NCBI RefSeq assembly: GCF_000720255.1
Contig: NZ_JOJE01000003.1
Span: forward strand, 124,001-188,000
Reading direction: 5' to 3'
Source: Streptomyces griseus subsp. griseus
GTDB lineage: Bacteria; Actinomycetota; Actinomycetes; Streptomycetales; Streptomycetaceae
Length of the DNA: 64,000 nt
Made by a program: the position numbers and the translations under genes. Of this stretch, positions 7,222-15,147 are shown piece after piece (position 1 is the first letter of the stretch; each line of letters starts with the position of its first letter). A model generated the notes under the pieces. It was not told the origin of the DNA. It worked only from the letters and a program-made list of their open reading frames with translations, and made no database searches.

Positions 7222-8457
7222 TCATCCGTACAAGAGGTACTCCTGGCGCAACCGCCGGAATGTCGCGAGCTCCTCGCGCCAGCCCGCGACCACCTCCTCG
7301 ACGCCCGCGCCCGCGTCGATCGCGGTGCGCACCCAGGAGGAGCCGGTGAGCTTGTCGATCCAGTGGTCGGGCCGCCAGGCGAAGCCGCTCCACACCCGCT
7401 TGGCGGTCACCAGCAGCACGATGCCGGTGCGGACGGGGTCGTACGCCTTCCGGTCCTGGACGTGGATCTGCACGCCGCCGACGGTCTTGCCCTGGAACTT
7501 GGAGAAGGTGGGGGCGAAGTAGGCCTCACGGAAGCGGACGCCTTTCAGGCCGGCCTCGTTCGCAGCGGCCGCCCAGCGTCCGTCGATGCCCTCCGCGCCG
7601 ATGAGTTCGAACGGGCGGGTGGTGCCTCGGCCTTCCGACAGGTTCGTCCCCTCGAAGAGACACGTTCCGGAGTACACCAGGGCCGTCTCCGGGGTCGGCA
7701 TGTTCGGGCTCGGCGGGACCCAGGGCAGGCCCGAGGCGTCGTACCAGTCGGAGCGGCGCCAGCCGGTCATCGTCACCGTGTCCAGGGCTACCGGTTTCGT
7801 CAGGAACTCCGCGTTGAAGAGCCGGGCGAGTTCGGCGACGGTCATGCCGTGCGCCTGCGAGACGGGTTGTCTGCCGACGAAGGACGCGAAGTCCTTGTGC
7901 AGCACGGGGCCCAGGGCCGCTCGTCCGGTCACCGGGTTCGGGCGGTCGAGGACGACGAAGCGCTTGCGTGCGAGCCGGGCCGCCTCCATGCAGTCGTAGA
8001 GGGTCCAGATATACGTGTAGAAGCGGGCACCGACGTCCTGGATGTCGAAGAGGACGGTGTCGACGCCGGAGGTGGCGAAGATGTCGGCGAGGGGTTGTCC
8101 GCTCTTCTGGTACGTGTCGTAGACGGGCAGGCCGGTGGCCGGGTCGTCGTAGCGGCCTTCCGAGCCGCCGGCCTGGGCGGTCCCGCGGAAGCCGTGTTCG
8201 GGGCCGAAGACGGCGCGGACGTTCACACGGGGGTCGGCGTGCATGACGTCGACGATGTGGTGGGCCTGGCGGGTGATGCCGGTGGGGTTGGTGAGGATTC
8301 CTACGCGATCGTCGCGCAGTTCGGCGTAGCCGTTCGCGGCGAGGTTCTCGAAGCCGGTTCTCAGGCGGCGGGCGCGTGATGGCTCCGCCCGGGCCTGCGG
8401 TGTTGAGGCTGCTACGACGGCCGTGGTGGCGAGCAGGCTTCGTCTGGAGAGCTTCAT
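7222..8457 (-). CDS. exo-beta-N-acetylmuramidase NamZ-type (DUF1343, YbbC-like)
   Basis: This 411-residue secreted protein begins MKLSRRSLLATTAVVAAST, a twin-arginine-like export signal cleaved near residues 22-25. The body matches DUF1343/YbbC proteins, including FGPEHGFRGTAQAG, FDIQDVGARFYTYIWTL and HGMTVAELARLFN. The characterised member, Bacillus subtilis NamZ, removes terminal N-acetylmuramic acid from peptidoglycan chains, so recycling of its own or foreign cell wall outside the cytoplasm is expected. The length is normal for the family. The ribosome site is weak. The gene points away from the SDR operon and could share the 8458-8628 intergenic region with it. Confidence 0.85.
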   Translation of the reverse strand: MKLSRRSLLATTAVVAASTPQARAEPSRARRLRTGFENLAANGYAELRDDRVGILTNPTGITRQAHHIVDVMHADPRVNVRAVFGPEHGFRGTAQAGGSEGRYDDPATGLPVYDTYQKSGQPLADIFATSGVDTVLFDIQDVGARFYTYIWTLYDCMEAARLARKRFVVLDRPNPVTGRAALGPVLHKDFASFVGRQPVSQAHGMTVAELARLFNAEFLTKPVALDTVTMTGWRRSDWYDASGLPWVPPSPNMPTPETALVYSGTCLFEGTNLSEGRGTTRPFELIGAEGIDGRWAAAANEAGLKGVRFREAYFAPTFSKFQGKTVGGVQIHVQDRKAYDPVRTGIVLLVTAKRVWSGFAWRPDHWIDKLTGSSWVRTAIDAGAGVEEVVAGWREELATFRRLRQEYLLYG

Positions 8458-8507
8458 GAAGTGACGGTAGGGGCTTCCGCGGGTCGTGGGGAGGGTGCCG
8501 GTCGTTC

Positions 8508-8537
8508 GTGGCTTGTCGCGCGGTTCCCCACGCCCCT
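8508..8537. repeat. dispersed streptomycete repeat core, copy 1
   Basis: The core GTGGCTTGTCGCGC followed by GTTCCCCACGCCCCT matches, with three differences, the two copies at 16633 and 16796. All copies lie between genes. A sequence of this kind is common between genes in Streptomyces genomes (my recollection). Confidence 0.6.
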
Positions 8538-8567
8538 GGTTGGCTGTGGTTACCCCTTTCCCGCGAC

Positions 8568-8583
8568 ATACCGACCGGTTAGT
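8568..8583. promoter_or_regulatory. TetR-type operator, site A (upstream of SDR-ligase-tetR operon)
   Basis: ATACCGACCGGTTAGT is a palindrome with a central ACCGGT and lies 45 bp before the SDR start. A nearly identical site, read on the other strand as ATACCGACCGGTCGGC, lies 46 bp before the kinase gene start. Matching sequence and matching distance at the two convergent units point to one shared repressor, most simply the TetR protein encoded at 11102. Confidence 0.7.
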
Positions 8584-8628
8584 CTGGCCGTGCTCGGGTC
8601 AGAGTCGAGCCCGCGTTGAAGGGGACTG

Positions 8629-9393
8629 ATGGTGGAAGCCTTGCAGGGTGCTGGAGTGGTTGTCACGGGGGCGGGAGGGGGCATCGGGGCGGCCCTCGCC
8701 CGGCGCTTCGCCGCTGAAGGGGCCCGGGTCGTCGTCAACGATCTTGATGCGGAGAGGGCCGGGGCCGTCGCCGACGAGATCGGGGGGATCGCCGTGCCCG
8801 GGGACGCCTCAGGGATCGTGGAGGCCGCCCGTGACGCCCTCGGCGGGACCGTCGACGTGTACTGCGCCAACGCCGGAGTCGCCTCGGGTGGGTCGGAGGC
8901 GGCCGGGGAGAGCGTCTGGGCGCTTGCCTGGGACGTCAACGTCATGGCGCACGTCCGGGCGGCCGAGGCACTGCTGCCGGACTGGCTGGAGCGCGGCGGC
9001 GGGCGTTTCGTGTCCACCGTCTCCGCGGCGGGGCTGCTGACCATGATCGGGGCGGCGCCCTACAGCGTCACCAAGCACGGCGCGTACGCCTTCGCCGAGT
9101 GGCTGTCCCTGACGTACCGCCATCGGGGGGTCAAGGTGCACGCGATCTGTCCGCAGGGCGTCCGCACCGACATGCTCGCCGCCACCGGCAGCGCGGGCGA
9201 CCTGGTGCTCCAGCCGACCGCGATCGAGCCGGAGGACGTCGCGGACGCCCTGTTCCGGGGCATCGAGGAGGACCGTTTCCTGATCCTGCCGCACCCCGAG
9301 GTCGCCGGGTACTACCAGGCCCGTGCCGCCACCCCCGACCGATGGCTGAGCAACATGAACCACATCCAGCAGAAGTGGGAGGCCGGACAGTGA
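8629..9393 (+). CDS. SDR family oxidoreductase
   Basis: This is a 254-residue classical short-chain dehydrogenase. The dinucleotide motif TGAGGGIG is at residues 13-20, NAG at 81-83, Ser132, and the catalytic YSVTK with Tyr145 and Lys149. Asp38 after the second strand suggests NAD rather than NADP. It is the first gene of an operon: its stop overlaps the GTG of the acyl-CoA ligase by four bases. GAAGGGG precedes the ATG by four bases. By analogy with LvaD of Pseudomonas putida it could reduce a 4-oxoacyl-CoA, but the family alone does not prove that. Confidence 0.85.
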   Translation: MVEALQGAGVVVTGAGGGIGAALARRFAAEGARVVVNDLDAERAGAVADEIGGIAVPGDASGIVEAARDALGGTVDVYCANAGVASGGSEAAGESVWALAWDVNVMAHVRAAEALLPDWLERGGGRFVSTVSAAGLLTMIGAAPYSVTKHGAYAFAEWLSLTYRHRGVKVHAICPQGVRTDMLAATGSAGDLVLQPTAIEPEDVADALFRGIEEDRFLILPHPEVAGYYQARAATPDRWLSNMNHIQQKWEAGQ

Positions 9394-11075
9394 CCTCTTC
9401 GACCCCCTCGACCTCGTCGCGCTACGCGGCCAGGCCCTGGCTCGGGCTCCTCAACGAGGCCCAGCGCGCCCCCGTCGACCCGGCCGACTCCCTGGTCCAC
9501 GCCCTGCGCCGGTCCGCCGCCGAGGCCCCCGACCGCACCTGCCTCACCTACTTCGACGGCCGGCTCACCTACCGCGAGGTCGACGAGCTCAGCGATTCCG
9601 TGGCCGGGCACCTCGCCGGGCGTGGTCTGGAGCGCGGTGACCGGGTGGCCGTACTGCTGCAGAACTCACCGCAGTTCGTGCTCGCCCTGCTCGGTGCCTG
9701 GAAGGCCGGCGCGACCGTCGTGCCCGTCAACCCGATGTACAAGGCGGGCGAGGTCACCCACGTCCTGCGGGACGGCGAGGTGGCCGCGCTGGTGTGTTCC
9801 GACCGGGCGTGGGAGTCGTACCTTCGGGACACGGCCGCGGACTCACCGGTGCGGATCGTGCTCACGGCATGCGAGTTGGATTTCCAGACGCGCAACGACG
9901 CGCGCGTGCTCGGCTTCGAGCGGGTGCCGGAGGCCGGGGACGCCGACGACCTGACGGCCGTCGCCCGCGCGGGGCACAAGGCGCCGGAGGGGCGTGACCC
10001 GGCCGCCTCGGACATCGCGCTGATCAGCTACACCTCGGGCACGAGCGGCACCCCCAAGGGGGCCACCAACACGCACGGCAACATCATGTACAACGCCGAG
10101 CGGCAGCGCACCGGCCTGGGCCTGCCCGACCCGCCCGTGTACTACGCGCTGGCGCCGCTGTTCCACATCACCGGCATGGTCTGCCAGCTCGGCGCCTGCC
10201 TCGACAGCGCGGGCACACTCGTGCTGACGTACCGCTTCGATGGCGGGGTCGTCCTCGACGCGTTCGCCGAGCACCGGCCGCACTACACCGTGGGGCCCGC
10301 CACCGCGTTCATGGCGCTGGCCGCTCACCCGGACGTCACCCGGGACCACTTCTCGTCCTTCGTGACCATCTCCTCCGGCGGCGCCCCGCTGCCGCCCGCG
10401 CTGGTGGAGAAGTTCCGGGCCGGCTTCGGGCCGTACATCCGCAACGGCTACGGGCTCACCGAGTGCACCGCGCCCTGCGCGTCCGTCCCGCCCCAGCTGG
10501 AGGCGCCCGTCGACCCGGCCTCCGGGACCCTCGCGGTGGGCGTGCCCTGCGCCCAGGCGGTCGTGCGCATCGTCGACGACCGGGGCGAGGAGGTGCCCTT
10601 CGGTCAGCAGGGCGAGATCGTCGTCAGCGGGCCGCAGGTCGTGCCCGGGTACTGGCGGCGACCCGAGGCGACCGCGGAGACCTTCCCCGGCGGCGAGCTG
10701 CGCACCGGCGACATCGGGTTCATGGACCCGGAGGGCTGGCTGTACGTCGTCGACCGCAAGAAGGACATGATCAACGCGTCCGGCTTCAAGGTCTGGCCGC
10801 GCGAGGTCGAGGACGTCCTGTACACCCACCCGGCGGTGCGCGAGGCGGCCGTCGTGGGCGTGCCCGACGGGTACCGCGGCGAGACCGTCAAGGCGTACAT
10901 CAGCCTGCGTCCGGGTGCCGACACGGATGCGGATACGCTCGCGGCCTACTGCAAGGACAGACTGGCGGCCTACAAGTATCCGCGGCAGGTGGAGATCCTG
11001 CCCGACTTGCCCAAGACGGCGAGTGGGAAGATCCTCCGTCGGGAACTGCGTTCCCGCACGCACGACGCTTCGTAG
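9390..11075 (+). CDS. AMP-binding acyl-CoA synthetase
   Basis: This 561-residue member of the ANL superfamily activates a carboxylic acid as acyl-AMP and then acyl-CoA. The P-loop SYTSGTSGTPKGA is encoded around 10025-10065, YGLTE around 10450, the hinge region TGDIG and YVVDRKKDMI near 10710-10770, and the catalytic lysine motif TASGKILRR at the C-terminus. GTG 9390 is chosen because it overlaps the SDR stop (GTGA) and restores normal family length; the frame is open upstream to 9099 only as a shadow of the SDR gene. The specificity is probably a medium-chain or substituted fatty acid. Confidence 0.88.
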   Translation: MTSSTPSTSSRYAARPWLGLLNEAQRAPVDPADSLVHALRRSAAEAPDRTCLTYFDGRLTYREVDELSDSVAGHLAGRGLERGDRVAVLLQNSPQFVLALLGAWKAGATVVPVNPMYKAGEVTHVLRDGEVAALVCSDRAWESYLRDTAADSPVRIVLTACELDFQTRNDARVLGFERVPEAGDADDLTAVARAGHKAPEGRDPAASDIALISYTSGTSGTPKGATNTHGNIMYNAERQRTGLGLPDPPVYYALAPLFHITGMVCQLGACLDSAGTLVLTYRFDGGVVLDAFAEHRPHYTVGPATAFMALAAHPDVTRDHFSSFVTISSGGAPLPPALVEKFRAGFGPYIRNGYGLTECTAPCASVPPQLEAPVDPASGTLAVGVPCAQAVVRIVDDRGEEVPFGQQGEIVVSGPQVVPGYWRRPEATAETFPGGELRTGDIGFMDPEGWLYVVDRKKDMINASGFKVWPREVEDVLYTHPAVREAAVVGVPDGYRGETVKAYISLRPGADTDADTLAAYCKDRLAAYKYPRQVEILPDLPKTASGKILRRELRSRTHDAS

Positions 11076-11101
11076 GCATCACGGAAAGGCAGGTGGCGGC
11101 A

Positions 11102-11695
11102 GTGCCCAGGACGACGGACGGAGAGGGAACTCCCGTTCCGCAGCGGCTTCTCGCCGCCGCCACCCGGCTCTTCGCCGAGCGGGGATACGACCGCACCTCG
11201 GTGCAGGAGATCGTCGAGGCGGCCGGCGTCACCAAGGGGGCGCTGTACCACTACTTCGGCTCCAAGGACGACCTCCTGCACGAGGTGTACGCGCGTGTGC
11301 TGCGCGTCCAGCAGGAGAGACTCGACGCCTTCGCGAACGCCGACGAGCCGATCGAGAAGCGGCTGCGGGGCGCGGCCGCCGACGTCGTCGTCACGACGAT
11401 CGACAACCTCGACGACGCGATGATCTTCTTCCGGTCGATGCACCACCTGAGCCCGGAGAAGAACAAGCAGGTGCGCGCCGAGCGCCGGCGCTACCACGAG
11501 CGCTTCCGCGCGCTCGTCGAGGAGGGTCAGGAGGCCGGGGTGTTCTCCAGGGCGACACCGGCGGACCTGGTGGTCGACTACCACTTCGGTTCGGTCCACC
11601 ACCTGTCGACCTGGTACCGCCCCGACGGGCCGATGACCCCGCAGGAGGTCGCCGACCATCTGGCGGACCTCCTGCTGCGGGCCCTGCGTCCCTGA
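11102..11695 (+). CDS. TetR/AcrR family transcriptional regulator
   Basis: This is a 197-residue regulator. The helix-turn-helix covers residues about 30-60, containing TSVQEIVEAAGVTKGALYHY, and is followed by an all-helical ligand domain typical of FadR/KstR-like TetR repressors of lipid catabolism. It is third in the SDR-ligase operon, 26 bp after the ligase stop. The start is GTG 11102 with AGGTGG upstream; a GTG nine bases earlier is also possible. It probably represses its own operon through the site at 8568 and the convergent operon through the site at 14050, released by an acyl-CoA. Confidence 0.85.
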   Translation: MPRTTDGEGTPVPQRLLAAATRLFAERGYDRTSVQEIVEAAGVTKGALYHYFGSKDDLLHEVYARVLRVQQERLDAFANADEPIEKRLRGAAADVVVTTIDNLDDAMIFFRSMHHLSPEKNKQVRAERRRYHERFRALVEEGQEAGVFSRATPADLVVDYHFGSVHHLSTWYRPDGPMTPQEVADHLADLLLRALRP

Positions 11696-11714
11696 GCCCG
11701 GTCTCTCCCAGCCC

Positions 11715-11756
11715 ATGGGTAAGGGGCGGTCGCCACGGCGACCGCCCCTTACCCAT
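11715..11756. terminator. bidirectional terminator hairpin
   Basis: This is a perfect 20-bp stem, ATGGGTAAGGGGCGGTCGCC with its complement, around a 2-base spacer. It sits between the convergent tetR and acyl-CoA dehydrogenase genes and so can serve both strands. Confidence 0.85.
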
Positions 11757-11760
11757 CACC

Positions 11761-12975
11761 TCACAGGTACTTCTTCAGCTCCCGGCGTGCCAGCGAGCGC
11801 TGGTGGACCTCGTCCGGGCCGTCGGCGATCATCAGCGTCCGGGCGCCCGCGTACAGCTCGGCCAGCGGGAAGTCCTGGCTCACGCCGCCCGCGCCGTGCA
11901 GCTGGATCGCCCGGTCGATGATGTCGACGACCGCGCGGGGTGTGGCGATCTTGATGGACTGGATCTCCGCGTGCGCGCCCCTGTTGCCGACCGTGTCCAT
12001 CAGCCAGGCCGTCTTCAGCACCAGCAGCCGCAGCTGCTCGACCGTCACACGCGCGTCCGCGATCCAGTTGTGGACCACACCCTGCTGGGCCAGCGCCTTG
12101 CCGAAGGCCGTACGGGAGACGGCCCTCCTGCACATCAGCTCGATCGCGCGCTCCGCCATGCCGATCAGCCGCATGCAGTGGTGGATACGCCCGGGACCGA
12201 GCCGCGCCTGCGCGATGGCGAAGCCGCCGCCCTCCTCGCCGATCAGGTTGGACACCGGAACGCGCGCGTTGTCGAAGATCACCTCGGCGTGGCCGCCGTG
12301 GTAGTGGTCCTCGTAGCCGAAGACCTGCATGGCCCGCTTCACGGTGACGCCCGGGGTGTCGCGCGGGACCAGGACCATGGACTGCTGGCGGCGGATGTCG
12401 TCCCCGTCGGGGTCGGTCTTGCCCATCACGATAAAGATCTTGCAGTCCGGGTTCATCGCCCCGGAGATGTACCACTTGCGCCCGGTGATGACGTACTCGT
12501 CGCCGTCGCGCTCGATGTGGGTGGTGATGTTGGTGGCGTCCGAGGAGGCCACCTCCGGCTCGGTCATCGCGAACGCCGAGCGGATCTCACCGGCGAGCAG
12601 CGGCTCCAGCCACTGCTTCTTCTGCTGCTCGTCGCCGAACTGGGAGAGCACCTCCATATTGCCGGTGTCGGGGGCCGCGCAGTTGGTCACGGTGGGCGCG
12701 AGCTGCGGGGAGCGGCCGGTGATCTCGGCGAGCGGCGCGTACTGGAGGTTGGTCAGCCCGGCGCCGTACTCCGCGTCGGGCAGGAAGAGGTTCCACAGAC
12801 CCTGGCGGCGCGCCTCGGCCTTGAGGTCCTCGACCACGGCCGGGGTGTCCCAGGGGGAGGCCAGCAGCGCGCGCTGTTCGTGCGCGACCTGCTCAGCGGG
12901 GTACACGTACTCGTCCATGAAGGCGAGCAGCTTGGCGCGCAGTTCCTCGGTGCGCGCGTCGAACGCGAAGTCCAT
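11761..12975 (-). CDS. acyl-CoA dehydrogenase, ACAD10/ACAD11/LvaC type
   Basis: This 404-residue FAD flavoprotein has the three-domain acyl-CoA dehydrogenase layout: FAMTEPEVASSD near residues 140-150 for FAD binding, WYISGAMNP in the beta domain, and AIQLHGAGG in the C-terminal helices. Where classical enzymes have the catalytic YEGT, this one reads ADGPDEVH, the form I associate with ACAD10/11 and LvaC. Those proteins act with an APH-like kinase to convert 4-hydroxyacyl-CoA through a phosphorylated intermediate. The APH-type kinase gene ends six bases upstream, as a two-gene operon. The start ATG 12975 fits the family N-terminus. Confidence 0.88.
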   Translation of the reverse strand: MDFAFDARTEELRAKLLAFMDEYVYPAEQVAHEQRALLASPWDTPAVVEDLKAEARRQGLWNLFLPDAEYGAGLTNLQYAPLAEITGRSPQLAPTVTNCAAPDTGNMEVLSQFGDEQQKKQWLEPLLAGEIRSAFAMTEPEVASSDATNITTHIERDGDEYVITGRKWYISGAMNPDCKIFIVMGKTDPDGDDIRRQQSMVLVPRDTPGVTVKRAMQVFGYEDHYHGGHAEVIFDNARVPVSNLIGEEGGGFAIAQARLGPGRIHHCMRLIGMAERAIELMCRRAVSRTAFGKALAQQGVVHNWIADARVTVEQLRLLVLKTAWLMDTVGNRGAHAEIQSIKIATPRAVVDIIDRAIQLHGAGGVSQDFPLAELYAGARTLMIADGPDEVHQRSLARRELKKYL

Positions 12976-12981
12976 GGCCGG

Positions 12982-14004
12982 TCAGCCTTCCTGGAGAGTG
13001 TTCAGGCCGTGCTCGATGAAGACCGGAACCAGCTCGCCGATGCGGTCGAAGCCGCGCCCGACGGTCTGGCCCAGGGTGTAGCGGTAGTGGATGCCCTCGA
13101 GGATCACGGCGAGCTTGAACCAGGCGAAGGCCGTGTACCAGGAGACCGCGGAGACGTCCCGCCCCGAGCGTGCGGCGTACCGCTCGACGAGTTCCGCGGG
13201 GGCCGGGTGGCCGGGGGCCTCGGCCGTGGTGGAGACGGGCGAGTGGGGGGTGCCGAGCGGGATGCTGTACATCACCAGCAGGCCCAGGTCGGTCAGCGGG
13301 TCGCCGAGCGTCGACATCTCCCAGTCGAGGATCGCCGTGATCCGGTCACCGTCGCCGATCAGTACGTTGTCGAGACGGTAGTCGCCGTGCACGACGGCCG
13401 GGGCCGGGGAGTGGGGCAGTTGCCGGCCCAGTGCCGCGTGCAGCTCGTCCACACCGGCCAGTTCGCGGCTGCGGGAGGCGTCCAGCTGCTTGCCCCAGCG
13501 GCGCAGCTGCCGGTCGAGGAAGCCCTCGGGGCGGCCGAAGTCCGCGAGGCCCACCTCGGCGGGGTCCACGGCGTGCAGCTCGACGAGGGTGTCGACGAGC
13601 GACAGCACCGCCTCGCGCGTCCGCTCGGCGCCGAGCGGGGCGAGCTGATCCGCCGTGCGGTACGGCGTGCCCGGCACGAACTCCATGACGTAGAAGGGCG
13701 CCCCGAGCACCTCGTCGTCCTCGCACAGCAGCACCGGGCGCGGCACCGGCACGTTCGTCGGGTGCAGGGCGCTGATCACCCGGTGCTCGCGCCTCATGTC
13801 GTGCGCGGTGGCCAGGACGTGGCCGAGCGGGGGCCGTCGTACGACCCACTTCGACGTGCCGTCCGAGACCTCGTACGTCAGGTTCGACCGTCCGCCCTCG
13901 ATCAGCCGACCGGTGAGAGGACCCTGTGCCAGTCCGGGCCGCTCCCGGTCGAGCAGGCCGCGCAGCCGGTCGAGATCGAGTCCGGGCGGGTGGTCGGGGC
14001 TCAT
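12982..14004 (-). CDS. APH-type phosphotransferase (acyl-CoA hydroxyl kinase candidate)
   Basis: This is a 340-residue kinase of the aminoglycoside-phosphotransferase fold. The N-lobe has GGRSNLTYEV as a nucleotide loop and WVVRRPPLG with the ATP-site lysine/arginine region. The catalytic loop reads VVHGDYRLDNVL (about residues 206-217), followed by the metal-binding segment AILDWEMSTLGDP. This family is the N-terminal domain of animal ACAD10/ACAD11 and is LvaA in Pseudomonas, which phosphorylates 4-hydroxyacyl-CoA. Here it is a separate gene just upstream of the matching dehydrogenase. It starts at ATG 14004 behind operator site B. It is unlikely to be an antibiotic-resistance gene. Confidence 0.85.
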   Translation of the reverse strand: MSPDHPPGLDLDRLRGLLDRERPGLAQGPLTGRLIEGGRSNLTYEVSDGTSKWVVRRPPLGHVLATAHDMRREHRVISALHPTNVPVPRPVLLCEDDEVLGAPFYVMEFVPGTPYRTADQLAPLGAERTREAVLSLVDTLVELHAVDPAEVGLADFGRPEGFLDRQLRRWGKQLDASRSRELAGVDELHAALGRQLPHSPAPAVVHGDYRLDNVLIGDGDRITAILDWEMSTLGDPLTDLGLLVMYSIPLGTPHSPVSTTAEAPGHPAPAELVERYAARSGRDVSAVSWYTAFAWFKLAVILEGIHYRYTLGQTVGRGFDRIGELVPVFIEHGLNTLQEG

Positions 14005-14049
14005 GTGTCGCTCCTACGGGCGAGTGAACGGAACGGGACCTCACTTATG

Positions 14050-14067
14050 ATGCCGACCGGTCGGTAT
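14050..14067. promoter_or_regulatory. TetR-type operator, site B (upstream of kinase-dehydrogenase operon)
   Basis: ATGCCGACCGGTCGGTAT contains the 12-bp perfect palindrome CCGACCGGTCGG and matches site A at 8568. It ends 46 bp upstream of the kinase ATG at 14004, a position compatible with covering the promoter. Confidence 0.7.
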
Positions 14068-14193
14068 GTCGTCCAGTATGCGCGACGAACGTGACCTGAG
14101 CCACCCTAGGCCGAAGGTGCCCCACCCGGTACGGCGGGGCGTGCAAGGGCTTTCGGCTTGCGAGCCGCTCGGGGACCCCGGAGGGTCGATGCC

Positions 14194-15147
14194 ATGAAGG
14201 CGATCAGCTACAGCCGCTACGGCGGACCCGAGGTGCTGGAGTACGGCGAGGTCGTGGACCCCCCGATCGGCCCCGACGCCGTGCTCGTGAAGGTACGGGC
14301 CGCGGCGGTCAACCCCGTCGACTGGAAGTGCCGTGAGGGCCATTTGGACGGCATGCTCCAGGCCGTCTTCCCGGTGGTGCCCGGATGGGACGTCTCGGGG
14401 GTCGTCGTGCGGCCGGGTGTCTCCGTCACGGAGTTCGCGGTCGGTGACGAGGTGATCGGCTACGTCCGTGAGGACTTCCTCTCTCGCGGCACCTTCGCCG
14501 AGTACGTCGCCGCGCCCGTACGCACCCTCGCCCGCAAGCCGCGCAACCTCACCTACGAGGAGGCCGCGGGACTACCGCTCGTCGGACTCACCGCCTACCA
14601 GGTGCTGATCAAAACACTTGAGGTGAAGCGGGGCGAGACGGTCCTGATCCACGCCGCGGCCGGCGGAGTCGGCTCGATCGCCGTGCAGATCGCACGCCAC
14701 CTGGGCGCGCGGGTGATCGGTACCGCGAGCGAGGGCAACCACGACTTCGTACGCTCCCTGGGCGGCGAACCCGTGACCTACGGCGCCGGCCTCACCGACC
14801 GGGTGCGGGGGCTGGCCCCTGAGGGAGTGGACGTCGCCTTCGACGCCGTCGGCGGCGATGCCCTGCGCGACTCGGTGAACCTCCTGGCCGCAGAGGGCCG
14901 CCTCGCGTCGATCGCCGACCCGAACGTCCTCGGCTACGGCGGCCGTTACTGCTGGGTGCGGCCCGACGCGGAGGATCTGAAACGGCTGGTGGACCTCGCC
15001 GAACGGGGCGTGGTCTCCGTGCACGTCTCGAAGACGTTCCCACTGGAGCGGACGGCGGAGGCCCACCGGCTCAGCGAGGAGGGACGGACGCGGGGGAAGA
15101 TCGTGGTGACGGTGGAGTGGGACGCCACGGGTAAGGGGGAGGAGTAG
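14194..15147 (+). CDS. NADP-dependent MDR oxidoreductase (quinone oxidoreductase-like)
   Basis: This 317-residue medium-chain reductase has a GroES-like N-terminus and a Rossmann domain with HAAAGGVGSIAVQIARHLGA around residues 150-169. Catalytic zinc ligands are absent, as in zeta-crystallin-type enzymes that reduce quinones or enones. The chosen ATG 14194 has GGAGGG eight bases upstream; an earlier in-frame start at 14158 lacks this. It is divergent from the kinase gene, so site B at 14050 may also affect it. The substrate is unknown. Confidence 0.82.
   Translation: MKAISYSRYGGPEVLEYGEVVDPPIGPDAVLVKVRAAAVNPVDWKCREGHLDGMLQAVFPVVPGWDVSGVVVRPGVSVTEFAVGDEVIGYVREDFLSRGTFAEYVAAPVRTLARKPRNLTYEEAAGLPLVGLTAYQVLIKTLEVKRGETVLIHAAAGGVGSIAVQIARHLGARVIGTASEGNHDFVRSLGGEPVTYGAGLTDRVRGLAPEGVDVAFDAVGGDALRDSVNLLAAEGRLASIADPNVLGYGGRYCWVRPDAEDLKRLVDLAERGVVSVHVSKTFPLERTAEAHRLSEEGRTRGKIVVTVEWDATGKGEE

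Follow-up and report, generated by a model that had tools for sequence, protein, structure and literature searches.

In mammals, ACAD10 and ACAD11 are fusions of a kinase with an acyl-CoA dehydrogenase (ACAD) that act on 4-hydroxy acids (PMC12440821, PMC11342911), and the reactions have been reported both for these proteins and for their B. pseudomallei orthologues (PMC11342911). The lva operon of Pseudomonas putida likewise brings together a kinase, an ACAD10/11-type dehydrogenase, a short-chain dehydrogenase/reductase (SDR) and a CoA ligase; homologues of lvaABCD have been placed in the Alpha-, Beta- and Gammaproteobacteria in a statement that cites the original lva paper (PMC6692424). In the current study, a comparable set of genes was analyzed at positions 8568-14067 of a 64,000-nt window from the 9.9 Mb genome of Streptomyces griseus subsp. 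griseus (G000). The window is the whole stretch of DNA that was analyzed, and all coordinates given without a genome or plasmid label are positions in it. Taken as a whole, the locus is best explained as one catabolic module, controlled by a TetR-family regulator, for acids oxygenated at carbon 4, and we consider this explanation probable. It represents an actinobacterial form of the known ACAD10/11-Lva system that is under TetR control. Its chemistry has already been described; the new elements are a shared site, a predicted regulon that spans the genus, and an lva-like gene set in which TetR replaces the sigma-54 regulator.

Five genes make up the locus. On the forward strand, the genes for a classical SDR oxidoreductase (8629-9393, 254 aa), an AMP-binding acyl-CoA ligase (9390-11075, 561 aa) and a TetR-family regulator (11102-11695, 197 aa, GTG start, TetR_N and TetR_C_24 domains) follow one another (8629-11695), and this run converges on two reverse-strand genes (11761-14004), which encode an ACAD (11761-12975, 404 aa) and an aminoglycoside phosphotransferase (APH)-type kinase (12982-14004, 340 aa). 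The ligase start was set at the GTG at 9390, which overlaps the SDR stop codon; the automatic open reading frame (ORF) call begins too early. In the direction of transcription the APH gene lies 6 nt upstream of the ACAD gene. An earlier note on this DNA (the original prediction) had described SDR, ligase and TetR genes facing ACAD and APH genes, and all five were confirmed on the strands given there.

A search of the PDB with the window dehydrogenase gave scores of 454-463 bits for ACAD11 chains and a putative ACAD, 4hr3 (ACAD11: E 8.3e-138, 463 bits), and 141 bits for the best conventional ACAD. Over 392 aligned columns, the protein and mouse ACAD11 share 56.1% identity, and the published identity between LvaC and ACAD11 is also 56% (PMC11342911). 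In ACAD11, the 4-phosphate is bound by R626, H634 and R637 (HCMR region), the substitution of which disrupts phosphate elimination, while D753 is catalytic (PMC12440821). The equivalents of all four residues are identical in the window protein and in 113/113 Streptomyces orthologues (window included, all at 76% identity or more). They are also kept in 80/80 of the best loci from a contig search, mostly Burkholderiales. In the class of genome G122, ACAD matches were found in 27 of 274 genomes (32 in total), and 19 loci were read with their flanks; the four residues are kept in 20 of the 21 ACAD matches of these loci, the sole exception being a 28%-identical, motif-less match. None of five conventional ACADs from the same genome as the window (L004-L008) has D753, H634 or R626; all keep the family-wide R631, and one of them (L006) has Arg at 637.

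The original prediction had noted ADGPDEVH in place of the catalytic Glu motif. This sequence is present, and its Asp aligned with D753 of ACAD11, so the reading needs one correction: Asp substitutes for Glu and the catalytic acid is not lost. A FastTree phylogeny was built from the window protein, mouse ACAD11, 12 Streptomyces orthologues, 10 loci from the mostly-Burkholderiales search and others. The window protein and mouse ACAD11 were joined at a node with a support of 0.965, and the ACAD10/11-type group was split from the conventional ACADs of the window genome with a support of 0.994; a motif-less match (L289_ACAD_16015) fell at the base, and several inner nodes were weak. Judged by bit scores, active-site residues and this tree, the dehydrogenase is of the ACAD10/11 type, as had been proposed.

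For the kinase, the best PDB matches were 9o56 (233.6 bits), 3dxp (174.9 bits) and ACAD11 (174.5 and 170.9 bits), and the next chain scored 41.7 bits. Its identity to mouse ACAD11 is 33.4%; the published identity of LvaA to ACAD10/11 is 29% (PMC11342911). Counterparts of D220, N225 and R176 of ACAD11 are identical in 110/110 kinase orthologues, that of the window included. The comparison with ACAD11 sequences and the active-site residues support a kinase of the ACAD10/11 type, in agreement with the earlier claim. Thus, on the ACAD11 side, the matches and residues of both enzymes, together with the ACAD tree, do not place them in clades unrelated to ACAD11. The Streptomyces module shares with mammalian ACAD10 and ACAD11 the two enzyme domains, the catalytic Asp and the phosphate-binding R/H/R set, but it consists of two separate proteins encoded in one operon, is without the HAD domain of ACAD10, and adds TetR control, an SDR and a ligase.

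Among 121 Streptomyces genomes searched, an ACAD match (E <= 1e-150) was found in 115, in G079 only at 60% identity; a kinase match was found in 115 and a TetR match (E <= 1e-70) in 117. ACAD orthologues were assigned to 114 genomes, and loci were taken from 113 of them (window included, G048 left out). In 104 of these 113 genomes the SDR and TetR genes face the ACAD and APH genes in the convergent order, and the ligase is also present in 87 of the 104. Two of the remaining nine have a different order (L115, L157), and the other seven lack at least one partner within the stretch read, some of them at contig ends. The module is near-universal in the Streptomyces sampled. No description of the locus in Streptomyces was found in the titles and abstract openings of the papers listed in searches of openly licensed PMC text.

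An exact 16-mer, CGACATACCGACCGGT, occurs in two copies in the window, one upstream of the SDR gene and the other, in the opposite orientation, upstream of the kinase gene; a third place in the window matches it with 3 mismatches. The two copies define predicted TetR operators 5' of each operon, namely CATACCGACCGGTTAGTCTG for SDR-ligase-TetR (8567-8586, forward strand) and CATACCGACCGGTCGGCATCAT for APH-ACAD (14047-14068, reverse strand), with the exact sequence common to both. The bounds given in the original prediction, 8568-14067, coincide with these two operator-like sites, which it did not mention. Upstream regions in the loci fetched around ACAD in other Streptomyces were then scored for at least 10 of 11 matches to TACCGACYGGT. 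The site was found upstream of the SDR gene in 104/105 loci and of the kinase gene in 109/111, against 1/113 for TetR, 2/90 for the ligase and 0/113 for ACAD, and 0.5-1% in shuffles that preserve base composition only. One SDR locus and one APH locus were dropped from these counts as too short, and a second copy (L123) and a remote homologue (L124) were left out. The single SDR miss was L096, and the two APH misses were L063, where the kinase match covers residues 203-340 only, and L160, a short contig.

About 20 positions of the aligned sites are at least 90% conserved. When no more than 1 mismatch was allowed, the 16-mer was present in 95/121 Streptomyces genomes, partly at other places; the conserved part is shorter than the 16-mer. 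The counts for the SDR and kinase genes, set against those for the control genes, suggest that both operons very probably form one TetR regulon, and the TetR protein, encoded by the last gene of the SDR operon, would be the natural reader of the site. Together with the conserved gene order, the shared site indicates that the five genes belong to a single unit. The sequence ACCGACCGGT also appears, along with TetR and Streptomyces, in a review on phenylacetate catabolism (PMC9493321).

Related arrangements occur outside Streptomyces. In the wider class, a TetR match (E <= 1e-45) was present in 63/296 genomes, 26 of which are Streptomyces; the proteins of the others are 44-72% identical. In a region from another actinobacterial family (L345), a site followed by SDR, SDR, APH and ACAD genes faces a TetR gene with its own site, and the second SDR of this operon is 64% identical to that of the window. 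In another non-Streptomyces region (L344), the TetR gene and the APH-ACAD pair each have a site. The site search in these regions had no shuffle control, and isolated matches occur elsewhere, also in L012 and L120-L122.

In the proposed pathway, the ligase would make the CoA ester of the acid, and the APH-type, LvaA-like kinase would phosphorylate the 4-hydroxyl group of 4-hydroxyacyl-CoA. The ACAD10/11-type, LvaC-like flavoprotein would then remove the phosphate from the resulting 4-phosphoacyl-CoA to give a 2-enoyl-CoA, which is usable by ordinary beta-oxidation. As a prediction this core chemistry, from 4-hydroxyacyl-CoA through 4-phosphoacyl-CoA to 2-enoyl-CoA, is well supported by homology. 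The SDR is predicted to interconvert oxo and hydroxy forms, either as a 4-oxoacyl-CoA reductase, giving the 4-hydroxy form like LvaD, or as a dehydrogenase in a later oxidation of hydroxyacyl-CoA. TetR, as a predicted repressor, would act on both operons through CATACCGACYGGT at the two promoters, and since it is encoded in the SDR operon, it would also repress itself; its release would be brought about by an intermediate of the pathway, probably in the form of a CoA ester. Candidate substrates, among which no choice is made here, are levulinate, 4-hydroxyvalerate, longer 4-hydroxy fatty acids and hydrolysed gamma-lactones.

Several observations weigh against a single module of this kind. Three genomes (G035, G051 and G094; L120-L122) keep a TetR gene, at 81-83% identity, without an ACAD or APH match, and in these loci there was no SDR in the stretch read and no site within 3 kb of TetR; the regulator may therefore have a further role. 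Three of the five non-Streptomyces regions are partial, with ACAD and TetR (L346), APH and TetR (L347) or TetR alone (L348). Unlike in the P. putida lva operon, the ligase has been lost in part of the genus, being absent from 17 of the 104 convergent Streptomyces loci, where the gap between SDR and TetR is 32-209 nt. The SDR of the window does not appear clearly closer to SDRs that adjoin ACAD10/11-type genes (L289, 30%, 66 bits; L298, 33%, 95 bits) than to its best paralogue in the same genome (35%, 87 bits); having no specific tie of this kind, it is not demonstrably LvaD. Finally, the likeness to LvaA and LvaC rests on ACAD11 and on published identities. The original prediction of a complete five-gene pathway for 4-oxo or 4-hydroxy acids is thus upheld in part. 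An ACAD10/11-type kinase and dehydrogenase are present, and order and site make the five genes one unit, but neither levulinate as the substrate nor a complete pathway follows, given the position of the SDR and the loci without a ligase.

The SDR may act downstream, as the 3-hydroxyacyl-CoA dehydrogenase of the following round of beta-oxidation, in which case the pathway would start from 4-hydroxy and not from 4-oxo acids. The SDR motifs TGAGGGIG, NAG and YSVTK were read by eye. Close homologues of the SDR that carry an organism name are Streptomyces proteins. Among solved structures the best match is the domain of a (3R)-hydroxyacyl-CoA dehydrogenase, which would fit such a role, but at 110 bits the similarity is weak, and other SDR chains among the matches listed reach 57-86 bits. 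An Asp after the second strand, found in the window SDR as VVNDLD, suggests the use of NAD, again in favor of a downstream oxidation. Moreover, the dehydrogenase part of ACAD10 has been reported to yield some 3-hydroxyacyl-CoA (PMC11342911). On the other hand, the L345 operon contains two SDR-like genes, the roles of which may differ. A downstream SDR is a tenable reading, but less likely than not.

A true levulinate pathway, in which levulinate is activated by the ligase, levulinyl-CoA is reduced by the SDR as a functional LvaD, and the kinase and dehydrogenase work as LvaA and LvaC, appears unlikely. The enzyme types of lvaA, lvaC, lvaD and lvaE are all present and apparently co-regulated, as this pathway would require. 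A missing LvaB and a dispensable ligase would be no obstacles to it either. For the lva-like cluster of Pseudomonas citronellolis LA18T, which has the kinase, dehydrogenase and SDR, it is reported that lvaB was not found, and P. putida mutated in lvaE is reported still to grow on levulinate (PMC6692424). The Streptomyces module parallels the former in having no LvaB-like small gene in the cluster and the latter in the loss of the ligase, and other ligases can probably stand in for that of the module. However, in addition to the lack of a specific tie for the SDR, the best NCBIfam matches of the ligase are long-chain fatty-acid ligases, and all of the matches listed are below their cut-offs. 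The regulator also differs: in place of the sigma-54-type LvaR of P. putida there is a TetR protein, and the genes are arranged in two convergent operons. No sigma-54-type regulator gene was found within 8629-14004, where TetR is the sole regulator gene. The P. citronellolis cluster differs from the Streptomyces module as well, in having a sigma-54-type regulator, a histidine phosphatase gene and an LvaE2 ligase in an oppositely oriented group (PMC6692424).

In further contrast to the P. putida operon, the Streptomyces cluster has no LvaB-like small gene. The claim that the locus is without an LvaB homologue fits this gene content (a gap of 6 nt between APH and ACAD, and no small gene); it was judged from the genes present, not by a search with the LvaB sequence. 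DUF6285, an unverified candidate for an LvaB stand-in, was not used as evidence. It was absent from the window genome and from four Burkholderiales genomes, and was present in 7/274 genomes in the class of G122.

It is also conceivable, although we think it quite improbable, that the locus has a near-core housekeeping role, namely the removal of gamma-lactones or 4-hydroxy acids that the organism itself or its neighbors produce, possibly including ring-opened signals of the gamma-butyrolactone type, with TetR sensing 4-hydroxy- or 4-phosphoacyl-CoA. Three hints point to such a function. The module is near-universal in the genus. The best NCBIfam match of TetR is the ScbR autoregulator-receptor model, at 71.7 bits and so well under the cut-off of 150. 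On a plasmid of Streptomyces sp. NBC_00388 (NZ_CP107949, L010), a kinase-dehydrogenase pair (55% and 71% identical) is clustered with genes for ketoacyl synthases and with a gene related to AfsA.

An antibiotic-modifying aminoglycoside phosphotransferase with unrelated fatty-acid genes as neighbors is a very unlikely account of the kinase: it would be favored by the Pfam APH domain, by NCBIfam APH(3') matches and by the label of 9o56, the best structural match, which reads just 'aminoglycoside phosphotransferase', but the APH(3') score is 40.7 bits, far under the cut-off of 205, the kinases for viomycin, capreomycin and hygromycin reach 22-25 bits, compared with 171-175 for ACAD11 and 3dxp, and the gene is paired throughout the genus with an ACAD10/11-type dehydrogenase gene, at the close spacing noted above. 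It is just as unlikely that the two operons are independent neighbors that share the 16-mer by accident, since, although they are parted by insertions between TetR and ACAD in many genomes and rearranged in L115 and L157, both promoters carry the site in nearly every locus, the operons remain neighbors despite the insertions, and the L345 operon unites SDR, APH and ACAD genes.

Between the stop codons of the two convergent operons lies a perfect inverted repeat of 20 nt (11715-11756), probably a bidirectional terminator. In many other species the gap itself (11696-11760 in the window) is widened by inserted DNA, up to several kb of it. The commonest cluster of inserted genes (13 loci) encodes a product with the start of a secreted protein, while another cluster, of 2 loci, resembles a quinone-oxidoreductase-type enzyme (L159). 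No recurrent pathway gene was seen among the insertions, as judged from ORF starts only, with no family search run.

The module is flanked by genes transcribed away from it, NamZ on the reverse strand (7222-8457) and a zinc-type oxidoreductase (QOR) on the forward strand (14194-15147). The predicted operators lie in the intergenic regions 8458-8628 and 14005-14193, and both divergent genes may respond to TetR. The site was counted upstream of NamZ in 42/45 cases (at least 10 of 11 positions) and of QOR in 11/59, but since these genes share divergent intergenic regions with the module, the counts are not independent controls.

A second recurrent site, CGACATACCTACCGGT, was considered as a member of the regulon and rejected; it lies near genes without an evident link and occurs also in two genomes that are without the module. 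It is probably the target of another regulator. In the window genome it is found at G000:C2:80379-80394 (L303), and it is present in about 30 genomes among the matches listed. In 5 of the 9 loci read it adjoins a gene whose product starts MGRSRRT(L/I)PEELLLLALDP.

Related gene pairs were found at other places. The window genome has a second, diverged kinase-dehydrogenase pair (G000:C26:20708-37916, L162; ACAD 41-44%, APH 39% identical), in which HAMR replaces HCMR and the catalytic Asp is kept; it adjoins a ligase-like gene and genes with TetR-like and SDR-like starts. A plasmid of Streptomyces cathayae (NZ_CP121683, 3247-9250, L009) carries a copy of the module (APH 90%, ACAD 92%, SDR 88%) between IS3 transposase genes. 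This copy has no ligase match, and its TetR match is in two pieces with no annotated gene. A cluster on a plasmid of Tsukamurella tyrosinosolvens (NZ_LR134470, L011) has all four enzyme types (SDR 55%, kinase 53%, dehydrogenase 71%, ligase 42% identical). It differs in being a run of genes on the same strand that also includes MaoC, FabG, HAD and QOR genes and two further ACAD genes.

With these results, a specific function and a regulon can be predicted for a near-core Streptomyces locus, and the 4-hydroxy acid route of mammals and Pseudomonas is extended to actinobacteria with a different type of switch. The two sites and the set of conserved residues make the module directly testable. Moreover, the TetR/operator pair could serve as a sensor of 4-hydroxy acids.

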